The position numbers and the translations under genes are program-made. A stretch of 56,298 bases of DNA. Origin: a virus. How positions within the stretch are numbered: the stretch's first letter is position 1; the number at the start of each line of letters is the position of its first letter. Of the stretch, positions 2,848 to 37,740 are shown piece after piece. Under the pieces are notes generated by a model. That model ran no database searches. It worked only from the letters and a program-made list of their open reading frames with translations, and was not told the DNA's origin. Where the stretch lies: positions 1 through 56,298 of the IMG/VR virus record IMGVR_UViG_3300027749_000131; one strand, 5' to 3'.

Positions 2848-4164
2848 ATGGGAACTGATATTATGACGCTGTTAGAAATAGCTATGTTTTTATTTAACAA
2901 TAATAAAAACAATTTAGCACGCGAATTACTTAAGACTTTTGAAACGCAAGCGAATACGATCGATCAGATGGAGCAAATTATCGTAATTTATGATAAACTT
3001 CATTTTTATCAAGAAGCGGTAGATTTAGCTCTTAAAGAACTAGAGCTTGCTAATACTCAAGAAGAATACTCTATCAAAGTTAATTTAACTCGAGTTTATA
3101 ATTTATTAAATGAGCCATACAAATCATTGGAATTATCAAACTGGGTGCTTGATAGAACTCCTAATAATTTAGATGTGTTGATTGAAAAATCTCTATCTCT
3201 ATCGTTGTTAAATAATAAAGAAGAAGCTAATAAACTTCTATTAGAACTTCAACCAAAGTCTAATAATCCAGTAATTCTTGATGTAATTAAACACAATCTT
3301 GGTGCATATTATTTAGGGCGACATGAATTCAATAAAGGATTAGATTCCATTTGGGATAATGCTAAACCCCCAGAAACTAACAAATACAATCTTGATTATT
3401 GGGACAAAACTCCTATTCAAGATGCAATATTATTAATTGAATCGTATGGCGGATACGGCGACGAAATCATCAACATACGATTTCTTGAAAATATAAAAGC
3501 ACTTGGAATGATTCCTGTATGGAAAACTCACAGAAAAGACATTCGCGATATTATTATTCGAATTGGATACCAAGCAATTGAACATATAACTGAATTAGAT
3601 TCAACTAAATATGCAGTTTGGTGCGTTTCTATGAGATTACCTTATCTATTAAATTTGGATGAACATGAAATTGATAACGGACCTTATTTAACAGCTACTC
3701 CTGAATCTATCGAAAAGTTTAAAAAATATAGAGGGTGCGTTGGTATCAAATATTTTGGTGAAATAGGATACGAACATAATTTACATCGAACATTAAATTT
3801 AGATGAATTGGTATCAAATATTCCAGAACAAGCAGTATTAGTTTCGCTACATCAAGAACCAATTCATTCTAGCATTAGACCAATAATTGATTTGTCAAGT
3901 GAATTAAAAACATTTGACGATACTTTGGGATTAATATATAATCTAGATTATGTTGTTTCTAGTTGTACGTCAGCACCGCATGCAGCTGGAGCATTAGGTA
4001 AAGAAACTTATATTTTTACTCCAATATTTGAATATTATTTATGGAGTTCTACTACAGATACATCAACTATCTGGTATAAAAATACGACTCTATTAAGACA
4101 AACTAAATGGAAATCGTGGGCGGAACCAATGGCTCAACTCAAATCAAAATTGGAAATGAGATAA
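2848..4164 (+). CDS. TPR protein with GT9/GT41-like C-terminal domain
   Basis: A 438-residue protein. The N-terminal 140 residues are helical with TPR-like character (YNLLNEPYKSLELSNWVL). The C-terminal half carries SCTSAPHAAGALGKETY from about residue 372, which matches the donor-binding motif of glycosyltransferase-9-like domains, followed by a W-YKNTTLLRQ tail common in TPR-GT fusions. It may glycosylate fibres or host glycans. The start may be the ATG at 2848 or the one at 2863. A terminator hairpin overlaps the stop codon. Confidence 0.75.
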   Translation: MGTDIMTLLEIAMFLFNNNKNNLARELLKTFETQANTIDQMEQIIVIYDKLHFYQEAVDLALKELELANTQEEYSIKVNLTRVYNLLNEPYKSLELSNWVLDRTPNNLDVLIEKSLSLSLLNNKEEANKLLLELQPKSNNPVILDVIKHNLGAYYLGRHEFNKGLDSIWDNAKPPETNKYNLDYWDKTPIQDAILLIESYGGYGDEIINIRFLENIKALGMIPVWKTHRKDIRDIIIRIGYQAIEHITELDSTKYAVWCVSMRLPYLLNLDEHEIDNGPYLTATPESIEKFKKYRGCVGIKYFGEIGYEHNLHRTLNLDELVSNIPEQAVLVSLHQEPIHSSIRPIIDLSSELKTFDDTLGLIYNLDYVVSSCTSAPHAAGALGKETYIFTPIFEYYLWSSTTDTSTIWYKNTTLLRQTKWKSWAEPMAQLKSKLEMR

Positions 4165-16775: not shown

Positions 16776-17769
16776 TTTTGGAGCAATTGGTAAAGTTTCT
16801 GAACAAACTGGAGTAGCTGAAATACAGCGAAATAAACAATCGCTACCAAGTGCTGTTAATACAGAAATTGAATCTATGGATGTCGTGGTTACTGCAAAAG
16901 GTAAACTCGACATTACTTTTAATGATAATACCAAAGTTTCCGTTGGCGAACAAAGTAAACTTGTAATTGACGATTTTGTTTATGACGCTAAAAAATCCAC
17001 AGGAAAACTTGGATTAAAAATTGCATTAGGAACTGTTCGTTATGCCTCTGGGCAAATAGCAAAACATAATCCACAAAATGTTGGAATACAAACTCCAACG
17101 GCTACCGTTGCTGTTCGTGGTACAGATTTTTCTACAACAGTAGATGAATTAGGTCAAAGTACATTTATTCTGTTACCAAGTTGCGATTTATCTGGTTGCG
17201 TAACAGGAGCTATTGAAGTTTCTACAGATGCAGGTTTTGTTTTATTAAACCAAGCATTTCAATCAACTACTGTTTCTGATAAAACAAATTCTCCATCAAA
17301 ACCAACTATAATTAATATTGATCCATTAAATATTAACAATAGCTTAATTGTATCTTCTCCAGTAAAAGCCGCTGACACAACAGTAACAGTTCAACAAATA
17401 AAAACTGGATTAGATGTTAATTTTCTTGATCAAGATTTTTTAACGTACAAACAATTAAGTATCAATTTATTAGATGTAAAAACTGATTTAGATAAAAATA
17501 AATTGGATGAAAAATTATTAACAAATGCATTAGACGAACCGATTGATAATATTAGCGATATGTTGCCTGGATATGATGAAAAAACAAATTTAAAATATAA
17601 TACAAATGGAAAAGCATTAGTTCTTGATAAAGAAGCAGCAAAAAATAAATTTCAATTAAAAGTAGATAAAAATTCAGATGCAACTTTAAAATTAAATCAA
17701 GAAGGAACTGTTTTGACTCAAAATATTAACATGGGCACAACCACGAAAATAGATATTACACAAAAATAA
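16690..17769 (+). CDS. FecR-domain secreted protein
   Basis: A 359-residue protein. GGAAG lies five bases before the ATG, inside the curlin gene. A hydrophobic segment (ITLALLSLLLLLYSPRSFGA) is a signal peptide. Residues about 35-160 are a FecR domain: GVAEIQRNKQSLPSAVNTEI, DITFNDNTKVSVGEQSKL and IQTPTATVAVRGTDF. The C-terminus (LKLNQEGTVLTQNINMG) resembles a curlin repeat. FecR domains are periplasmic or surface modules. Overlap with the curlin gene implies coordinated expression; it may anchor the curlin fibre. Confidence 0.75.
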   Translation: MKTLKSPAQATTITLALLSLLLLLYSPRSFGAIGKVSEQTGVAEIQRNKQSLPSAVNTEIESMDVVVTAKGKLDITFNDNTKVSVGEQSKLVIDDFVYDAKKSTGKLGLKIALGTVRYASGQIAKHNPQNVGIQTPTATVAVRGTDFSTTVDELGQSTFILLPSCDLSGCVTGAIEVSTDAGFVLLNQAFQSTTVSDKTNSPSKPTIINIDPLNINNSLIVSSPVKAADTTVTVQQIKTGLDVNFLDQDFLTYKQLSINLLDVKTDLDKNKLDEKLLTNALDEPIDNISDMLPGYDEKTNLKYNTNGKALVLDKEAAKNKFQLKVDKNSDATLKLNQEGTVLTQNINMGTTTKIDITQK

Positions 17770-17772
17770 TAT

Positions 17773-18546
17773 ATGGATAAAAAATACCAAAGCATTTTTA
17801 TTAGCGATATACATTTAGGAACAAAAGATTCTAAGGCAAATGAATTAATTGATTTTTTAAAAAATAATACTTGCAATAAATTGTATCTTGTTGGAGATAT
17901 AATAGACGGTTGGAAAATACAACAAAATAAACTTAAATGGAAACCTAGTCATACAAAATTAATTCGTAAATTTTTATCTTTATCGAGGAAAGGAACTGAA
18001 GTAATATACATAACAGGAAATCATGATGAATTTATTAGACCAATGGTTAACCTTAACATTACCTTTGGTAAAATTTCAATTCATAATCAATATGAACATA
18101 ATGGAATTGATGGTAAACGTTATTTGGTAACTCATGGGGATTTATTTGATGGAATTACTAGGCTTGCTCCATGGTTAAGTTTTCTTGGAGATAAAGGCTA
18201 TGATTTAATTTTATCATTAAATAATAAATTTAATTGGGTACGACATAAATTGGGATTTGGTTATTGGAGCCTAAGTAAATATTTAAAACATAAAGTTAAA
18301 AAAGCTGTCGATTTTATGTTCCAGTTCGAAATAAATTTAACAGACTATTGTAAAAAACGTGGATATGACGGTGTTATCTGCGGGCACATACATAATTTGG
18401 AAATAAAACAAATTAATGGTATAATTTATATGAATTCTGGAGATTGGGTAGAAAGTTGTAGTGCCATCGTAGAAAATCACGATGGCACTTGGGAAGCTAT
18501 ATTATGGGTTGATGGAATTGGAATTACTAAAGAAACTTTCCATTAA
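17773..18546 (+). CDS. plcP: PlcP-like phospholipase C / LpxH-like metallophosphoesterase
   Basis: A 257-residue calcineurin-like phosphoesterase: SDIHLG (D12, H14), LVGDIIDGW (D42), GNHDEF (82-87), THGD (120-123) and GHIH (204-207). The segments GFGYWSLSKYLKHKVKKAVD and NSGDWVESC are hallmarks of the PlcP group, often annotated as UDP-2,3-diacylglucosamine hydrolase. In alphaproteobacteria PlcP cleaves phospholipids to diacylglycerol under phosphate limitation. An Agt-like glycosyltransferase lies 1.15 kb downstream, the known partner. Its 3' end overlaps a convergent homing endonuclease gene by 45 bases. Confidence 0.75.
   Translation: MDKKYQSIFISDIHLGTKDSKANELIDFLKNNTCNKLYLVGDIIDGWKIQQNKLKWKPSHTKLIRKFLSLSRKGTEVIYITGNHDEFIRPMVNLNITFGKISIHNQYEHNGIDGKRYLVTHGDLFDGITRLAPWLSFLGDKGYDLILSLNNKFNWVRHKLGFGYWSLSKYLKHKVKKAVDFMFQFEINLTDYCKKRGYDGVICGHIHNLEIKQINGIIYMNSGDWVESCSAIVENHDGTWEAILWVDGIGITKETFH
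18461..18488. other. 10-bp inverted repeat in the plcP 3' region
   Basis: GTGCCATCGT-AGAAAATC-ACGATGGCAC is a perfect 10-bp stem inside plcP, just beyond the 3' end of the endonuclease gene. It has no T-run. The degenerate second copy of this region (near 19480-19510) lacks it, so it may have come with the insertion. Confidence 0.55.
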
Positions 18547-19344
18547 TTCTTCTAAACTGATCGAACATTTTTCTTTTTTTGATGAATTTTCTTTAGATGG
18601 TATGAATTCTAAATTACAAATGTTTCCTATAATATACGGAGGAATATTGTTTTTGAATCCAGCTTGTACAGAAAATTTATGATCTAAAGAATACGAAGAT
18701 TTTGCGCGGCTATGTCCGCGCAATTCACAATAGTTTAGCATTTGTATTGGTTGTTTATTTGTAATTTTATTTACTTCTAATCGATATAACTTAAATGCTT
18801 CAATTTTATGTTTCGGTAACCATATATTATTATTTTCACTAGTTAATCTAATTTTAGATTTAATACCAAAAGATTTATTTGGATGATCTACCCCATAATT
18901 TAAAATATAAGTATTTTTTCTTTTTTCTAAAGATTGTTTAGTTTTCATATTATGGTCTACGCCATATTTTAAGAGCATTCCTTGTTTTCTTAATAATATA
19001 CCGGATTCTCCAGAAAATGGATTTTCTCTCTGCGATAGTTGATATATAGAATTACAACTATAACAACAAAATTTTCGAGGGTATCCGTTTTTAAATTTCG
19101 TTATTTTATTATTACAACTTTCTAAATAACATATTTTTGGATAATCTACTATATCATATAATATCCAATAAATTTTTTCCGTTAATTTTCCTGAACAATT
19201 TTTAGTATAATATTCTATACTATCAATTATATTTGAGGATAGAGATTTAAATTTTCCCTGAGAAATTTTACCATTTTTATCTAGAATAGTAGTTTGTAAT
19301 ATTAATTTTAATTCGAAAATGGTATAAATATGTGTGCTGATCAT
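18502..19344 (-). CDS. Putative homing endonuclease inserted at plcP
   Basis: A 280-residue protein. The N-terminal half has a Cys-rich site (CYLESCNNKI, RKFCCYSCNSIYQ). LLKYGVDHNMKTKQSLEKRK and LNYGVDHPNKSFGIKSKI are two copies of the YGVDHPxxS motif seen in phage-encoded endonucleases. The C-terminal SYSLDHKFSVQAGFKNNIPP followed by NICNLEFIPSKENSSKKEK resembles an HNH nuclease core. It is convergent with plcP, starts after AAGGATTAACG and has higher A+T than its neighbours. Mobility is inferred from the flanking plcP duplication. Confidence 0.75.
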   Translation of the reverse strand: MISTHIYTIFELKLILQTTILDKNGKISQGKFKSLSSNIIDSIEYYTKNCSGKLTEKIYWILYDIVDYPKICYLESCNNKITKFKNGYPRKFCCYSCNSIYQLSQRENPFSGESGILLRKQGMLLKYGVDHNMKTKQSLEKRKNTYILNYGVDHPNKSFGIKSKIRLTSENNNIWLPKHKIEAFKLYRLEVNKITNKQPIQMLNYCELRGHSRAKSSYSLDHKFSVQAGFKNNIPPYIIGNICNLEFIPSKENSSKKEKCSISLEELMESFFSNSNSINP

Positions 19345-19381
19345 CGTTAATCCTTTTAACTGTAAGAATGATTAGAATAGG

Positions 19382-19524
19382 TGGATATGTCCAGTATCGC
19401 GACCTATACCTATTTATAATTTAAAAGAAATTAATGGGATTGTTTATATGAATGATGGTGATTGGGGTTGAATCTTTAACAGCTTTGGTTGAACATCATG
19501 ATGGTAGATGGGAAATTATAACAT
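19382..19524 (+). pseudogene. Degenerate duplicate of the plcP 3' end
   Basis: Translation of 19409 onward reads IPIYNLKEINGIVYMNDGDW, matching NLEIKQINGIIYMNSGDW of the intact PlcP. One extra G at the GATTGG site shifts the frame, after which VESLTALVEHHDGRWEII matches VESCSAIVENHDGTWEAI. The GHIH metal site just before it is destroyed. The copy lies on the far side of the homing endonuclease gene, as expected for a displaced original 3' end. Confidence 0.8.
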
Positions 19525-19542
19525 ATAGCGGGGAGGAAAAAA

Positions 19543-19713
19543 ATGTGGACTCTGATAATGTTAGTAGTTAATATTTACGATCCAACTGATGTTCCTGGAA
19601 AAATGAAATTGCAATTTCCTACAGAACAAGAATGTGTACATGCAGCGGAATCGTTGTCATATACAGTGAAATTTGATTGGTTTAAGGTAACAGCTGAATG
19701 CAAAAAATCTTAA
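19543..19713 (+). CDS. Small hypothetical protein (56 aa) between plcP remnant and agt
   Basis: ATG at 19543 with GGGAGG seven bases upstream, a strong site. The product (MWTLIMLVVNIYDPTD..., ending VTAECKKS) has a short hydrophobic start and two cysteines, like small secreted phage proteins elsewhere in the window (51935). It overlaps the start of the glycosyltransferase gene by 16 bases. Confidence 0.6.
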   Translation: MWTLIMLVVNIYDPTDVPGKMKLQFPTEQECVHAAESLSYTVKFDWFKVTAECKKS

Positions 19714-20696
19714 TAATAACAGATAATCTACCGAACCAAATTAATGGCGTGGTAACTACATTTAATAATTTAAAACTTGTTGGCGAACAAGAGGAGTTTA
19801 CTTTTGAATTTATAACTCCTCTGGATTTTAAACATATTAACATGCCAAAATATCCAGAAGTTAAATTAAGTTTTCCTTTTGGATTAACTAAGAAAATTAA
19901 AAAAATAAATCCAGATTTTATTCATATAGCAACAGAAGGTACTATTGGAATTGCAGCTAAATTGGCGTGTAAGAAAAATAAATGGAAATATAACACGAGT
20001 TATCACACGAATTTCCCAGAATTCGCTAAAAAGATTTACGGAATGCCAAAAAAAATTACATACAAATTTTTACGTTGGTTTCATAATCGTTCTTATAAAG
20101 TTTTAACAACAACCAATACTATGGTTCAAGAATTAAAATCTAATGGATTTAAATGTGATGTTATTTCATGGACTAGAGGTATTAATAGAGAAGAATTAAC
20201 TCCAACTAAACCAAAAGAAAATAGAGAACAAATTATATTGTTATCTGTTGGTAGGGTTTCTAAAGAAAAAAATTTAGATGTATTATGTCAATTATCAACT
20301 AATCCGCAATATCACATTCAAATTGTCGGAGATGGTCCATATAGAAAAAAACTTGAAAAAAAATACCCATTGGTAGAATTTGTTGGTTATAAATCTGGAT
20401 CAGAATTAGCCGATTATTATGTTAATGCTGATGTATTTTGCTTTCCAAGTAAAACCGATACATTTGGAATTGTAATGATTGAAGCAATGTCATTGGGATG
20501 CCCTGTAGCTGGATATCCAGTTGCTGGTCCAATTGATGTTATTGAATCTGATGTTAATGGTTACATGGATGAAAATTTTGAAAACGCTATATTAAAATGT
20601 TTATCTCTTGATAGGCATAAAGTTTATGTTAGCTCATTCAAATGGACTTGGGAAAATTGCTGGAAAATATTTAAAGAAAATCTTGTTCTTAAATAA
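19698..20696 (+). CDS. GT4 glycosyltransferase, Agt-like
   Basis: A 332-residue GT-B enzyme. The N-terminus has TDNLPNQINGVVTTFNNLK (acceptor side) and IHIATEGTIGIAAKLACKK, then YNTSYHTNFPEF, typical of lipid and diacylglycerol glycosyltransferases (SqdX, Agt and PimB-type). The donor side has GRVSKEKN at 185-192 and FPSKTDTFGIVMIEAM at 249-264, with the E-x7-E signature. Paired with PlcP it would put a sugar on diacylglycerol to form phosphate-free glycolipids; this pairing is known in alphaproteobacteria. LPS or O-antigen modification is the alternative. Confidence 0.75.
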   Translation: MQKILIITDNLPNQINGVVTTFNNLKLVGEQEEFTFEFITPLDFKHINMPKYPEVKLSFPFGLTKKIKKINPDFIHIATEGTIGIAAKLACKKNKWKYNTSYHTNFPEFAKKIYGMPKKITYKFLRWFHNRSYKVLTTTNTMVQELKSNGFKCDVISWTRGINREELTPTKPKENREQIILLSVGRVSKEKNLDVLCQLSTNPQYHIQIVGDGPYRKKLEKKYPLVEFVGYKSGSELADYYVNADVFCFPSKTDTFGIVMIEAMSLGCPVAGYPVAGPIDVIESDVNGYMDENFENAILKCLSLDRHKVYVSSFKWTWENCWKIFKENLVLK

Positions 20697-20705
20697 ACAA
20701 CTACA

Positions 20706-20713
20706 CTAAATAC
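20706..20713 (+). promoter_or_regulatory. Late-promoter-like motif CTAAATAC
   Basis: CTAAATACAG lies 50 bases before the start at 20762. It is also the loop of a short hairpin (ACAACT...AGTTGT). Confidence 0.35.
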
Positions 20714-20761
20714 AGTTGTGTCAGGTGGCATAATACAATATTTTTATTATAGGGGAAAATT

Positions 20762-21406
20762 ATGAGATTAGAAGATTTAGCAGCAAGATTATTACTAGTT
20801 GAAGCAAAATTATCGACATTAACCGGAACAACAGTTAACACAGAAAACGCTACAAGTATTGATCAATTAGATACAAGATTATCAATTGTTGAAATTCAAG
20901 TTAGCCAATTAATCACGGAAAAAGCTCAAAGTCATATTAACGATATTATTTCAGCTCCAGCTGATCAATCGCCAGTATTAGCTGAAAATGTAGTTATATT
21001 ATCTGCAAGTTTTTCTGTAGCTGAAGCTGCAGATATAGTTGAAGATGTAGTTCAAATGCAAATAGAATCGCCTGAAATAGAACATTCAGAAGTTGCTGCA
21101 GTCGTTTCAGCTGCTGTTGCTGCAGTCGTTTCAGCTGAACCTGAAGTAGTAACTAATCCTGATGCAATTACTGTTGCAATAACAACAGCTATAACTGAAG
21201 CTCCTGCATTAGATTTAGAATTACATGAACAAGCTACTGATGCAATCGTTCAAATTATTTCTGCTGCGATTGGAGATGAAGTTTCTCCTGAAGTTCAACA
21301 ACAAGTATCTGAAGCACTTGCTACAGAATCTGATCCTGCGTTAGACGCTATTGAAGCTCGTTTAACAGTTGCCGAAGCAAAGGTTGATAGTTTATTGGGG
21401 AAGTAA
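20762..21406 (+). CDS. Ala/Glu-rich coiled-coil protein
   Basis: A 214-residue, strongly acidic protein with AGGGGAAAATT before the start. Its ends are similar: RLEDLAARLLLVEAKLSTL at the N-terminus and LDAIEARLTVAEAKVDSLL at the C-terminus, both coiled-coil heptads. The middle is low complexity (EVAAVVSAAVAAVVSAEPE). A structural or scaffold-like phage protein is possible; I do not recognise the family. Confidence 0.65.
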   Translation: MRLEDLAARLLLVEAKLSTLTGTTVNTENATSIDQLDTRLSIVEIQVSQLITEKAQSHINDIISAPADQSPVLAENVVILSASFSVAEAADIVEDVVQMQIESPEIEHSEVAAVVSAAVAAVVSAEPEVVTNPDAITVAITTAITEAPALDLELHEQATDAIVQIISAAIGDEVSPEVQQQVSEALATESDPALDAIEARLTVAEAKVDSLLGK

Positions 21407-21464
21407 TAAATTCAATCCAAAATTGGATTGGAAAGTTATTTATGCGTTAAAAATATGTAAAATT

Positions 21465-21491
21465 GGAAAAGACCTTTCGGTCTTTTCCTTT
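21465..21491 (+). terminator. Terminator before the nuclease gene
   Basis: GGAAAAGACC-TTTC-GGTCTTTTCC, a perfect 10-bp stem, is followed by TTTATT. It separates the coiled-coil gene from the nuclease-cyclase pair. Confidence 0.8.
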
Positions 21492-21509
21492 ATTAAATTT
21501 GGAGTAATA

Positions 21510-22268
21510 ATGAAAAAAATTGTTTTAGCTTTATGTCTTTTATTTTCTACAGCTGTTTTTGCAAATCCAATCGATGATAAATGTTCACATTTTGCAACTT
21601 GGGGTGCTCCGCAAATTAAAACTGAAGGCGATAATCAATATATCTGTAAAACTGGATATGCTGTTAACCTAAACTATAAAACCAAAGTTCCGTATTTTGT
21701 TATTGAACATATCACAGCTGATCACCTAAAAAAAGCAGTTGGTAGAAAAGATGATTTTCGTGAAGATGCAGAAGTTCCTGCTGAATACCGTGTAACATTA
21801 AAAGATTATGTTGGTTCTAACTTAGATCGTGGACACATGGCACCCGCAGCAGATTTCGTTTATGATGCTAAAGTAATGAGCGAATCATTTTTTCTTGATA
21901 ACATGATGCCTCAAAGTCAACCATTAAATCGCGGAGCATGGAAATTACTTGAAGAAAAAACCCGCGACCTAGTTGCTCATGGCGATGTTTATGCTATTAC
22001 TGGAACAATTTATGAGGGTGAATACAAAACTATTGGAAATAAAGTTGGAGTTCCTACTCATATTTACAAAGTAATTATTCAACCAAGCAAAGAACGAATG
22101 GTTGCATTTTTATTCCCTAATGAAAAAGTCGACCCAAAACAATTGGCAAAATATATTGTTCCTGTTGCTGATTTAGAAGTTAAAGCTGGTGTTGATTTTT
22201 CTCCAACAATTCCAGAAAATTTAAAAGCATTAGAAACAGTGGCAGCGAAATATGAAGATTGGTTCTAA
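21510..22268 (+). CDS. Secreted DNA/RNA non-specific endonuclease (NUC1 family)
   Basis: A 252-residue protein starting at the ATG after GGAGTAATA. Residues 1-18 are a signal peptide (KKIVLALCLLFSTAVFA). Residues 106-112 (DRGHMAP) are the catalytic motif of NucA-type nucleases with His109, and DNMMPQSQPLNRGAW holds the metal-binding Asn. Two cysteines in the mature part suit the periplasm. It overlaps the cyclase gene by 17 bases, so the two are probably co-translated. It could degrade host or incoming DNA/RNA outside the cytoplasm or salvage nucleotides. Confidence 0.85.
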   Translation: MKKIVLALCLLFSTAVFANPIDDKCSHFATWGAPQIKTEGDNQYICKTGYAVNLNYKTKVPYFVIEHITADHLKKAVGRKDDFREDAEVPAEYRVTLKDYVGSNLDRGHMAPAADFVYDAKVMSESFFLDNMMPQSQPLNRGAWKLLEEKTRDLVAHGDVYAITGTIYEGEYKTIGNKVGVPTHIYKVIIQPSKERMVAFLFPNEKVDPKQLAKYIVPVADLEVKAGVDFSPTIPENLKALETVAAKYEDWF

Positions 22269-24603: not shown

Positions 24604-24835
24604 CTTCGAACACCGCTACGACTTCATCTTCTGAAACAACCCATAACTCTCCAGAAACATTTTTTGCTTTATTCCAATTCAAAAGAATAATGTCGCCTAA
24701 TTTAAGTAATGTAACATCATGACCTAAGTTCATGACTTTTCCTTTTGTATTATCTTCAGAGTTAACGCCATAAATTAAACCCTGATATTCCGCTTTTTGT
24801 TTTAAAACAAGAACGTTTTTTCCCAATACTTGCAT
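24596..24835 (-). CDS. GroES-like co-chaperonin (putative)
   Basis: A 79-residue protein: GKNVLVLKQKAEYQGLIYG at the N-terminus, GKVMNLGHDVTLLKLGDIIL and LWVVSEDEVVAVFED at the C-terminus. The order of strand, mobile-loop-like segment, GxVxxxG and GDxVL resembles Cpn10/GroES; T4 gp31 and many phages encode such proteins to help fold capsid proteins. It is shorter than GroES (about 97 residues), so confidence is moderate. Confidence 0.6.
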   Translation of the reverse strand: MQVLGKNVLVLKQKAEYQGLIYGVNSEDNTKGKVMNLGHDVTLLKLGDIILLNWNKAKNVSGELWVVSEDEVVAVFEDD

Positions 24836-24855
24836 AATATTTTCCTATAGTTAAT

Positions 24856-24877
24856 AAAAGGGGATGTTTCCATCCCC
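24856..24877 (-). terminator. Terminator of the tmRNA gene
   Basis: Minus strand GGGGATG-GAAA-CATCCCC followed by TTTTATT is a rho-independent terminator directly after the tmRNA coding piece. Confidence 0.85.
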
Positions 24878-24917
24878 AAGCCGTTCTGTTTCCAAGTGGC
24901 TTAATCTCAGGCTAATC

Positions 24918-24962
24918 TCACGCTGCTAGAGCGTAATCTCCATAGTTTGCATCATTTGCTGC
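24918..24962 (-). other. tmRNA tag-peptide reading frame
   Basis: GCA GCA AAT GAT GCA AAC TAT on the minus strand starts a 14-codon frame encoding AANDANYGDYALAA and ending in TGA. The ALAA end is the usual ClpXP degron. The resume codon is one of the two leading GCA codons. Confidence 0.9.
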
Positions 24963-25048
24963 ATTTACTTTGATTTATGCTGATTACGTCAGTCATCTCT
25001 CGTGTTGCCTTCTCTACTATCTCACCTGATCGAAACCATGACAGCCCC

Positions 25049-25136
25049 ATCAAAAACATACTATTTGAGTCTTTAAACTCAATCACCATTCAGTAGATTA
25101 CCGCGAATAGTCTACCTTCTGAGTCTAATATGTTTA
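25049..25136 (-). other. tmRNA intervening segment
   Basis: The 88 bases between the CCA end of the acceptor piece and GGGG of the coding piece contain TTGAGTTTAAAGACTCAA, a hairpin, and pairs GGTAGACTATTCGCGGTAATCT. In two-piece tmRNAs this segment is excised. Confidence 0.7.
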
Positions 25137-25201
25137 TGGTGGAGCTGGAGGGATTCGAACCCTCGTCTCAGATGCCTTCATTTTGAAGGAGTTACAACAA
25201 T

Positions 25202-25360
25202 TCAGTTACTTTCCTGAGAAAGTTTACACAGTTTACGCTTTAATAATAAAAGTTCAATAGTATTATCAAGCGTTTTTCTATAATTTAATATTTCTACTTT
25301 TTTCTTTAGTGAAAGATTATTAAAGTTTTTTCGAGTTACTGGCCAAATCTCACCGTTCAT
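25202..25360 (-). CDS. Small hypothetical ORF overlapping the tmRNA promoter (52 aa)
   Basis: ATG at 25360 overlaps the stop of the upstream gene (ATGA) and has GGAAAACC nearby. The product (MNGEIWPVTRKNFNNLSLKK, then KVEILNYRKTLDNTIELLLL) is helical and basic. Its end runs into the tmRNA acceptor piece. It could be a real overlapping gene or chance. Confidence 0.45.
   Translation of the reverse strand: MNGEIWPVTRKNFNNLSLKKKVEILNYRKTLDNTIELLLLKRKLCKLSQESN
25241..25269 (-). promoter_or_regulatory. Probable tmRNA promoter
   Basis: Minus strand TTGATA (25269-25264), then 17 bases, then TTATTA/TATTAA (25246-25240). It differs from the repeated early promoters and lies inside the small upstream ORF, directly before the acceptor piece. 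Confidence 0.5.
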
Positions 25361-37571: not shown

Positions 37572-37658
37572 TGGCGGAAGGTATAGGGTTCGAACCTATA
37601 CGCCCATTTCTGGACGACGGATTAGCAATCCGCTCTATTACCATTCTAGCAACCTTCC
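37572..37658 (-). tRNA. tRNA-Ser(GCT)
   Basis: Acceptor stem GGAAGGT/ACCTTCC is perfect, the anticodon loop TTGCTAA gives GCT, the long variable arm is class II, the T arm TATAGG-TTCGAAC-CCTATA is canonical, and CCA is encoded. Confidence 0.9.
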
Positions 37659-37663
37659 ATAAT

Positions 37664-37740
37664 TGGTATCCCCGATAGGAATTGCACCTATAACCTTTCG
37701 CTTAGAAGGCGAATGCTCTATCTTGTTGAGCTACGGAGAC
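37664..37740 (-). tRNA. tRNA-Arg(TCT)
   Basis: Anticodon stem TTCGC/GCGAA with loop CTTCTAA gives TCT, reading AGA, a codon frequent in this A+T-rich genome. Acceptor GTCTCCG/CGGGGAT has wobble pairs; CCA is encoded. It lies five bases upstream of tRNA-Ser. Confidence 0.85.

Follow-up and report, generated by a model that had tools for sequence, protein, structure and literature searches.

Prophages and genomic islands can bring a substitute 3′ end for the gene in which they integrate and leave the old end downstream, as e14 does in icd. The closest known system to the locus described here is found in fungal mitochondria, where mobile-ORF hybrids in atp6 of Allomyces macrogynus and in atp6, atp9, cox2 and nad3 of Glomus sp. 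consist of a foreign C-terminus joined in frame, an endonuclease gene and the native C-terminus (PMC3630166). The native C-terminus matches insert-free relatives at 91-98% and the inserted one at 64-81%, and the native-tail differences of the fungal atp6 are all synonymous (PMC3630166). For phages, a T4 review (PMC2988022) and a paper on nuclease boundaries (PMC10448857) describe free-standing endonucleases and the genetic exchange around them; a term search of both found no replacement tail, and no instance of a gene end duplicated or replaced in a phage turned up in the open-access literature searched, outside which most subscription papers lie.

Here we describe such an arrangement in a 56.3-kb virus record (IMGVR_UViG_3300027749_000131, analyzed as a whole and called the window below), in which plcP is followed by an HNH gene on the opposite strand, a second piece of plcP, a small gene and a glycosyltransferase. 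We consider it probable that an HNH homing endonuclease brings along, as it moves, a new end for the gene that it targets, and that the whole allele later converted the plcP end of a phage resembling seven insert-free relatives (L001-L007).

A diverged repeat of the plcP end

The lipid-remodelling gene plcP (17773-18546, + strand) encodes a calcineurin-like phosphoesterase (Pfam Metallophos, 1.8e-12) and is a hybrid: its core resembles L001 up to about 18352-18384 in identity profiles against L001-L007, its tail in use (18373-18501, + strand) keeps GHIH and GDW and is marked as a foreign replacement by its differences from L001 and its unique residues, and its final 13 codons overlap, in antisense, the 3′ end of the HNH gene (18502-19344, − strand, 280 aa). 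As the initial annotation had proposed, the HNH gene lies between intact plcP and a second copy of its end: both reading frames are present, and the plcP end at 18350-18500 and its counterpart at 19373-19520 align as a diverged direct repeat with 69% identity over 152 nt (E=2e-16). A protein search of the window's own genome also picked up the second copy (match at 19415-19468), which we call the leftover tail (19422-19571, + strand). Its extent had been given as 19382-19524 and needs revision, since the clearly conserved part is 19424-19524, the frame continues to 19571, and 5′ of 19422 we see weak similarity to the plcP codons upstream of and including GHIH (shuffle p about 0.007; repeat D8). 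The frame ends in the natural plcP terminus (NVDSDNVSS and stop) overlapping the small gene, comparable to the plcP of L085, which ends in NVDINNASS and stop and overlaps its small gene too.

The frameshift noted earlier is real, consisting of one extra G in a GGGG run at 19463-19466, and the GHIH site is indeed lost: its codons are gone from the leftover and the same stretch is occupied by the TATAAATA box of the HNH gene. Beyond the extra G that breaks it, the leftover is, to judge from its sequence, hardly decayed. Twelve differences separate it from L002, distributed 2/1/9 over codon positions 1/2/3 (p=0.004 versus equal shares); being mostly synonymous, they arose while the leftover was still coding. 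Divergence at third positions reaches 27% in the leftover, while the plcP core has 6% (p=0.0007) and the glycosyltransferase 1% (p=9e-8).

The tail in use shows 30/129 differences from L001, as against 16-17/600 for the core, and first- and second-position changes make up an unusually high share of 0.85, where the median over pairs is 0.32. In a set of 123 distinct plcP ends it is the only one with Ser in place of the Asp of MNDGDW and with Ile at the position of an otherwise invariant Leu; two further strongly conserved places deviate as well. Of 79 distinct tails none is more isolated (nearest 9/39 aa), although the window's plcP core is only 1.5% from the nearest core. Two collinear copies in the same orientation could have come about if the plcP end had been duplicated in tandem inside a single phage and the copies had then diverged, but we regard this as very unlikely, as the copies are differently placed alleles, the leftover lying near L001-L007 and the tail in use near none.

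The second most isolated of the 79 tails, also strongly outlying in protein divergence, are those of L084-L091, whereas the tail of L069 is not an outlier, though a GIY-YIG-like gene is read from the sequence there too. That plcP ends near endonucleases may change to escape cutting fits these tails and is not proved by them. In L084-L091, a GIY-YIG-like homing endonuclease (phrog_314; 3230-3859 in L085) stands directly behind the same type of small gene as in the window.

Insert-free relatives and the foreign block

L001-L007 are seven contigs about 97% identical to the window outside the block (flanks about 97-100%), and in all of them plcP is directly joined to a small gene without an HNH gene, whose presence or absence is thus polymorphic at one site among close relatives. 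The initial annotation had expected insert-free relatives to join plcP to the small gene and to resemble the leftover, and both expectations hold, except that the small gene of L001-L007 is of another type. Their plcP end matches the leftover at 31/33 aa and the tail in use at 31/43 aa; the leftover is the closer of the two, which makes the tail in use the foreign one, in agreement with the earlier proposal that a donor plcP 3′ end came in with the endonuclease.

Identity between the window and L001-L007 holds to about 18352-18384 and resumes from about 19706-19724, with sharp edges of divergence around the HNH gene. In these profiles the foreign sequence is centered on the endonuclease gene, extending about 130 bp to its left and about 370 bp to its right, and it takes in the small gene (19543-19713, + strand) beside the leftover, which matches the type carried by L084-L091 (86-88% aa; 88% for the best); the glycosyltransferase starts at 19698. 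Tail, HNH gene, leftover and small gene probably entered as one block of about 1.35 kb, presumably through a conversion event. Arrival as one block around the endonuclease is what homing with conversion of the flanks would predict. In the interval between the glycosyltransferase and the next gene, a 214-aa gene (20762-21406) is missing from L001 and L005, which indicates a second insertion or replacement close by.

In a simpler history, endonuclease and donor tail would have gone straight into the plcP of the window phage, the leftover being that phage's own old end in decay and the small gene having been exchanged separately. The leftover does find its best match among all loci in L001-L007 (85.8% over 119 nt), including a 38-nt stretch near its end that is identical to them, and at another gene (L223, below) the leftover is, to the base, the original end of that genome's gene. 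What makes this history unlikely is that the leftover's third positions are several times more diverged than those of the core or the glycosyltransferase, that its differences are mostly synonymous, unlike decay, and that the adjoining small gene is foreign as well. The same observations do not support the initial annotation where it held that the displaced original had then decayed. On the strength of the third positions and the small gene, the leftover is probably not the window genome's own discarded end and most likely arrived together with the endonuclease. Neither a second plcP C-terminus nor a leftover without endonuclease occurs among the relatives' loci compared; the annotation had named two full plcP copies, or the remnant with no endonuclease in the lineage, as evidence against its own reading.

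The window arrangement rests on one contig, as a chimeric metagenome assembly would. We nonetheless consider a chimera very unlikely: at the edges, identical sequence runs for about 20 nt and 17 nt, short for a misjoin; the replicate described below is, moreover, present in several separately named contigs.

The endonuclease and a replicate at a baseplate-wedge gene

The HNH protein matches the profiles phrog_5104 (1e-18), DUF7487 (2e-8) and phrog_3339, a homing endonuclease family (5e-6), and its catalytic residues are intact, D221-H222, N244, N253 and K256 being invariant in five aligned relatives. Some of its relatives lie inside split genes, namely rnlA of Acinetobacter phage 133 (L178, 2200-4277) and nrdA of Campylobacter phage WX1 (L182, 538-3108), where they overlap the gene halves by some codons; others are placed between gp18 and gp19 (L179, L180). 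Single-protein scans of IMG/VR and bacterial genomes returned neither close relatives of the HNH protein nor a phage with the HNH gene beside the donor tail and no leftover, and the PDB held no relatives.

The leader of the HNH gene (19345-19421, − strand) contains an RBS-like AAGGAT and a T4-late-promoter-like TATAAATA ending at 19418; such boxes number nine on the two strands of the window, and we estimate that about 0.007 would be expected by chance per leader length. Just beyond the HNH stop codon lies a hairpin, annotated initially as 10 bp at 18461-18488 and in fact slightly larger (18460-18489), with a perfect 11-bp stem, an 8-nt loop and a predicted stability of -19.9 kcal/mol. No other 34-nt hairpin in the window, whichever strand is taken, is predicted to be as stable, and an exact search of IMG/VR with 28 bases of this one gave no match. 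It is a candidate 3′ end for the HNH message, although a role as terminator is a guess given that the hairpin has no T run.

An intron around the HNH gene was considered and rejected: 17000-22000 gave no group I match at E up to 1 and no Rfam match, group I or II introns included, the one sub-threshold match, to an sRNA, lying elsewhere. The positive control, L207, yielded three group I introns on one 4-kb piece (118-432, 2868-3176 and 3285-3592), with HNH-family genes nearby. Elsewhere in the window, a phage tmRNA is predicted at 24827-25229 (− strand, tag AANDANYGDYALAA), as are tRNA-Ser and tRNA-Arg at 37572-37740.

We compared left and right flanks at 84 HNH-family loci, looking for repeated gene ends, and found, besides the window, one clear case (L223), one probable case (L237) and an unclear pair (L190/L191), most loci having no tail repeat. 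In L223, a phrog_5104 HNH gene follows a baseplate-wedge gene and is itself followed by the native tail. Over about 1.9 kb this wedge gene is >99% identical to that of the insert-free L267, except for the last 27 bases, which are recoded (KIRVKTAQ versus RVRVKTAQ); the native tail behind the HNH gene equals L267 at 42/42 bases and the next 300 nt match at 299/300. L263 and L266 carry the same repeat, while L264 and L265 end inside the insert and L278 is the L223 contig again rather than a separate case. The HNH gene is broken by an internal stop in L223, L263 and L266 and also frameshifted in the latter two, as if, from the sequences, it were decaying after invasion with the recoded tail still in use. 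In L237, where the HNH gene is unbroken, its frame likewise continues into another copy of the end of the wedge gene, making this a probable further case of a replaced gene end. Gene-end replacement that leaves the native end downstream thus recurs in the HNH family, as a minority outcome.

Other repeats were set aside: that of L245 is a gene start rather than a gene end, those of L190/L191 are probably paralogous gene ends, and those of L207/L212 are group I introns (tested for L207). No left/right repeat was found for the GIY-YIG-like genes of L085 and L069, the L010 insert, the split rnlA of Acinetobacter phage 133 or the gp18/gp19 site of L179 and L180; at the Campylobacter phage nrdA it was weak.

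Ordinary homologous and illegitimate recombination could also have made the repeated end, with the endonuclease merely caught between the copies. Phage ends of this kind are mosaic, and at the corresponding place L010, L072, L096 and L115 carry genes other than endonucleases. It counts against the homing reading that most HNH relatives have no flanking tail repeat, and a mosaic could arise with homing playing no part. That the foreign sequence is centered on the endonuclease gene, and that the HNH family repeats the arrangement at an unrelated gene in L223, leads us to consider this quite unlikely as well.

Proposed mechanism and known counterparts

The reading we prefer is one in which a free-standing HNH homing endonuclease travels with a new 3′ tail for the gene that it targets. 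Endonuclease and tail would first have entered the plcP 3′ end of an earlier host phage, presumably through cutting at that place, the incoming tail completing plcP and the native tail being stranded beyond the endonuclease gene. The whole allele of tail, HNH gene, leftover and small gene would then have overwritten, by conversion, the end of plcP in an L001-like phage, and the present genome would be the product. With its protein roughly kept and its DNA changed, the incoming tail would allow plcP to stay functional, could abolish the site at which the enzyme itself cuts and would make loss of the insert by recombination less frequent. Of all this, the sequences themselves show the repeat, the foreign block, the empty sites, which of the tails is native and the replicate at a second gene, whereas cutting, immunity and the order of events are presumed.

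More tentatively, and with considerable doubt, every piece of the cassette may serve the endonuclease: the recoded tail would give self-immunity and block deletion, the hairpin in the tail would end the HNH message, and the altered native tail would act as late promoter and possibly as operator, so that the cassette could settle behind the ends of conserved genes and leave them intact.

The clean second case with its empty-site relative suggests that phage homing endonucleases also carry out gene-end replacement. The kind of homing seen in fungal mitochondria, where the endonuclease swaps the end of the invaded gene and leaves that gene unbroken, would thereby extend to phages; end swapping could in addition help to account for the abrupt mosaic ends of conserved phage genes, plcP included. 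L223 and L267 form a base-exact before/after pair, which makes the mechanism directly testable.

Like e14 in icd, the window element carries a substitute 3′ end and has the old end downstream; unlike e14, which relies on an integrase and attachment sites, it consists of one endonuclease gene. With the free-standing mob and seg endonucleases of T4 and their intronless homing, as presented in the review (PMC2988022), it shares an intergenic HNH gene adjoining a conserved gene, a late-promoter-like element and, presumably, localized gene conversion around the endonuclease, but a duplicated or replacement gene tail seems not to be described there. The review also reports that I-TevI is autoregulated through a late promoter overlapped by a homing-site-like operator (PMC2988022); similarly, the late-promoter-like box of the HNH leader lies in a stretch weakly resembling the plcP target, and by analogy we would guess at an operator function for this leader.

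The fungal hybrids come closest (PMC3630166). As in these, the window, and likewise L223 when set against L267, has a foreign C-terminus in frame, an endonuclease gene and a native C-terminus, and in the window it is the native tail, more than the one in use, that insert-free relatives resemble. Unlike the fungal elements, which encode LAGLIDADG or GIY-YIG enzymes in mitochondria, the window has an HNH gene in a phage, on the strand opposite plcP, and its leftover probably moved again inside a larger converted block. The window element works like a hybrid of the fungal mobile-ORF type without being a member of it.
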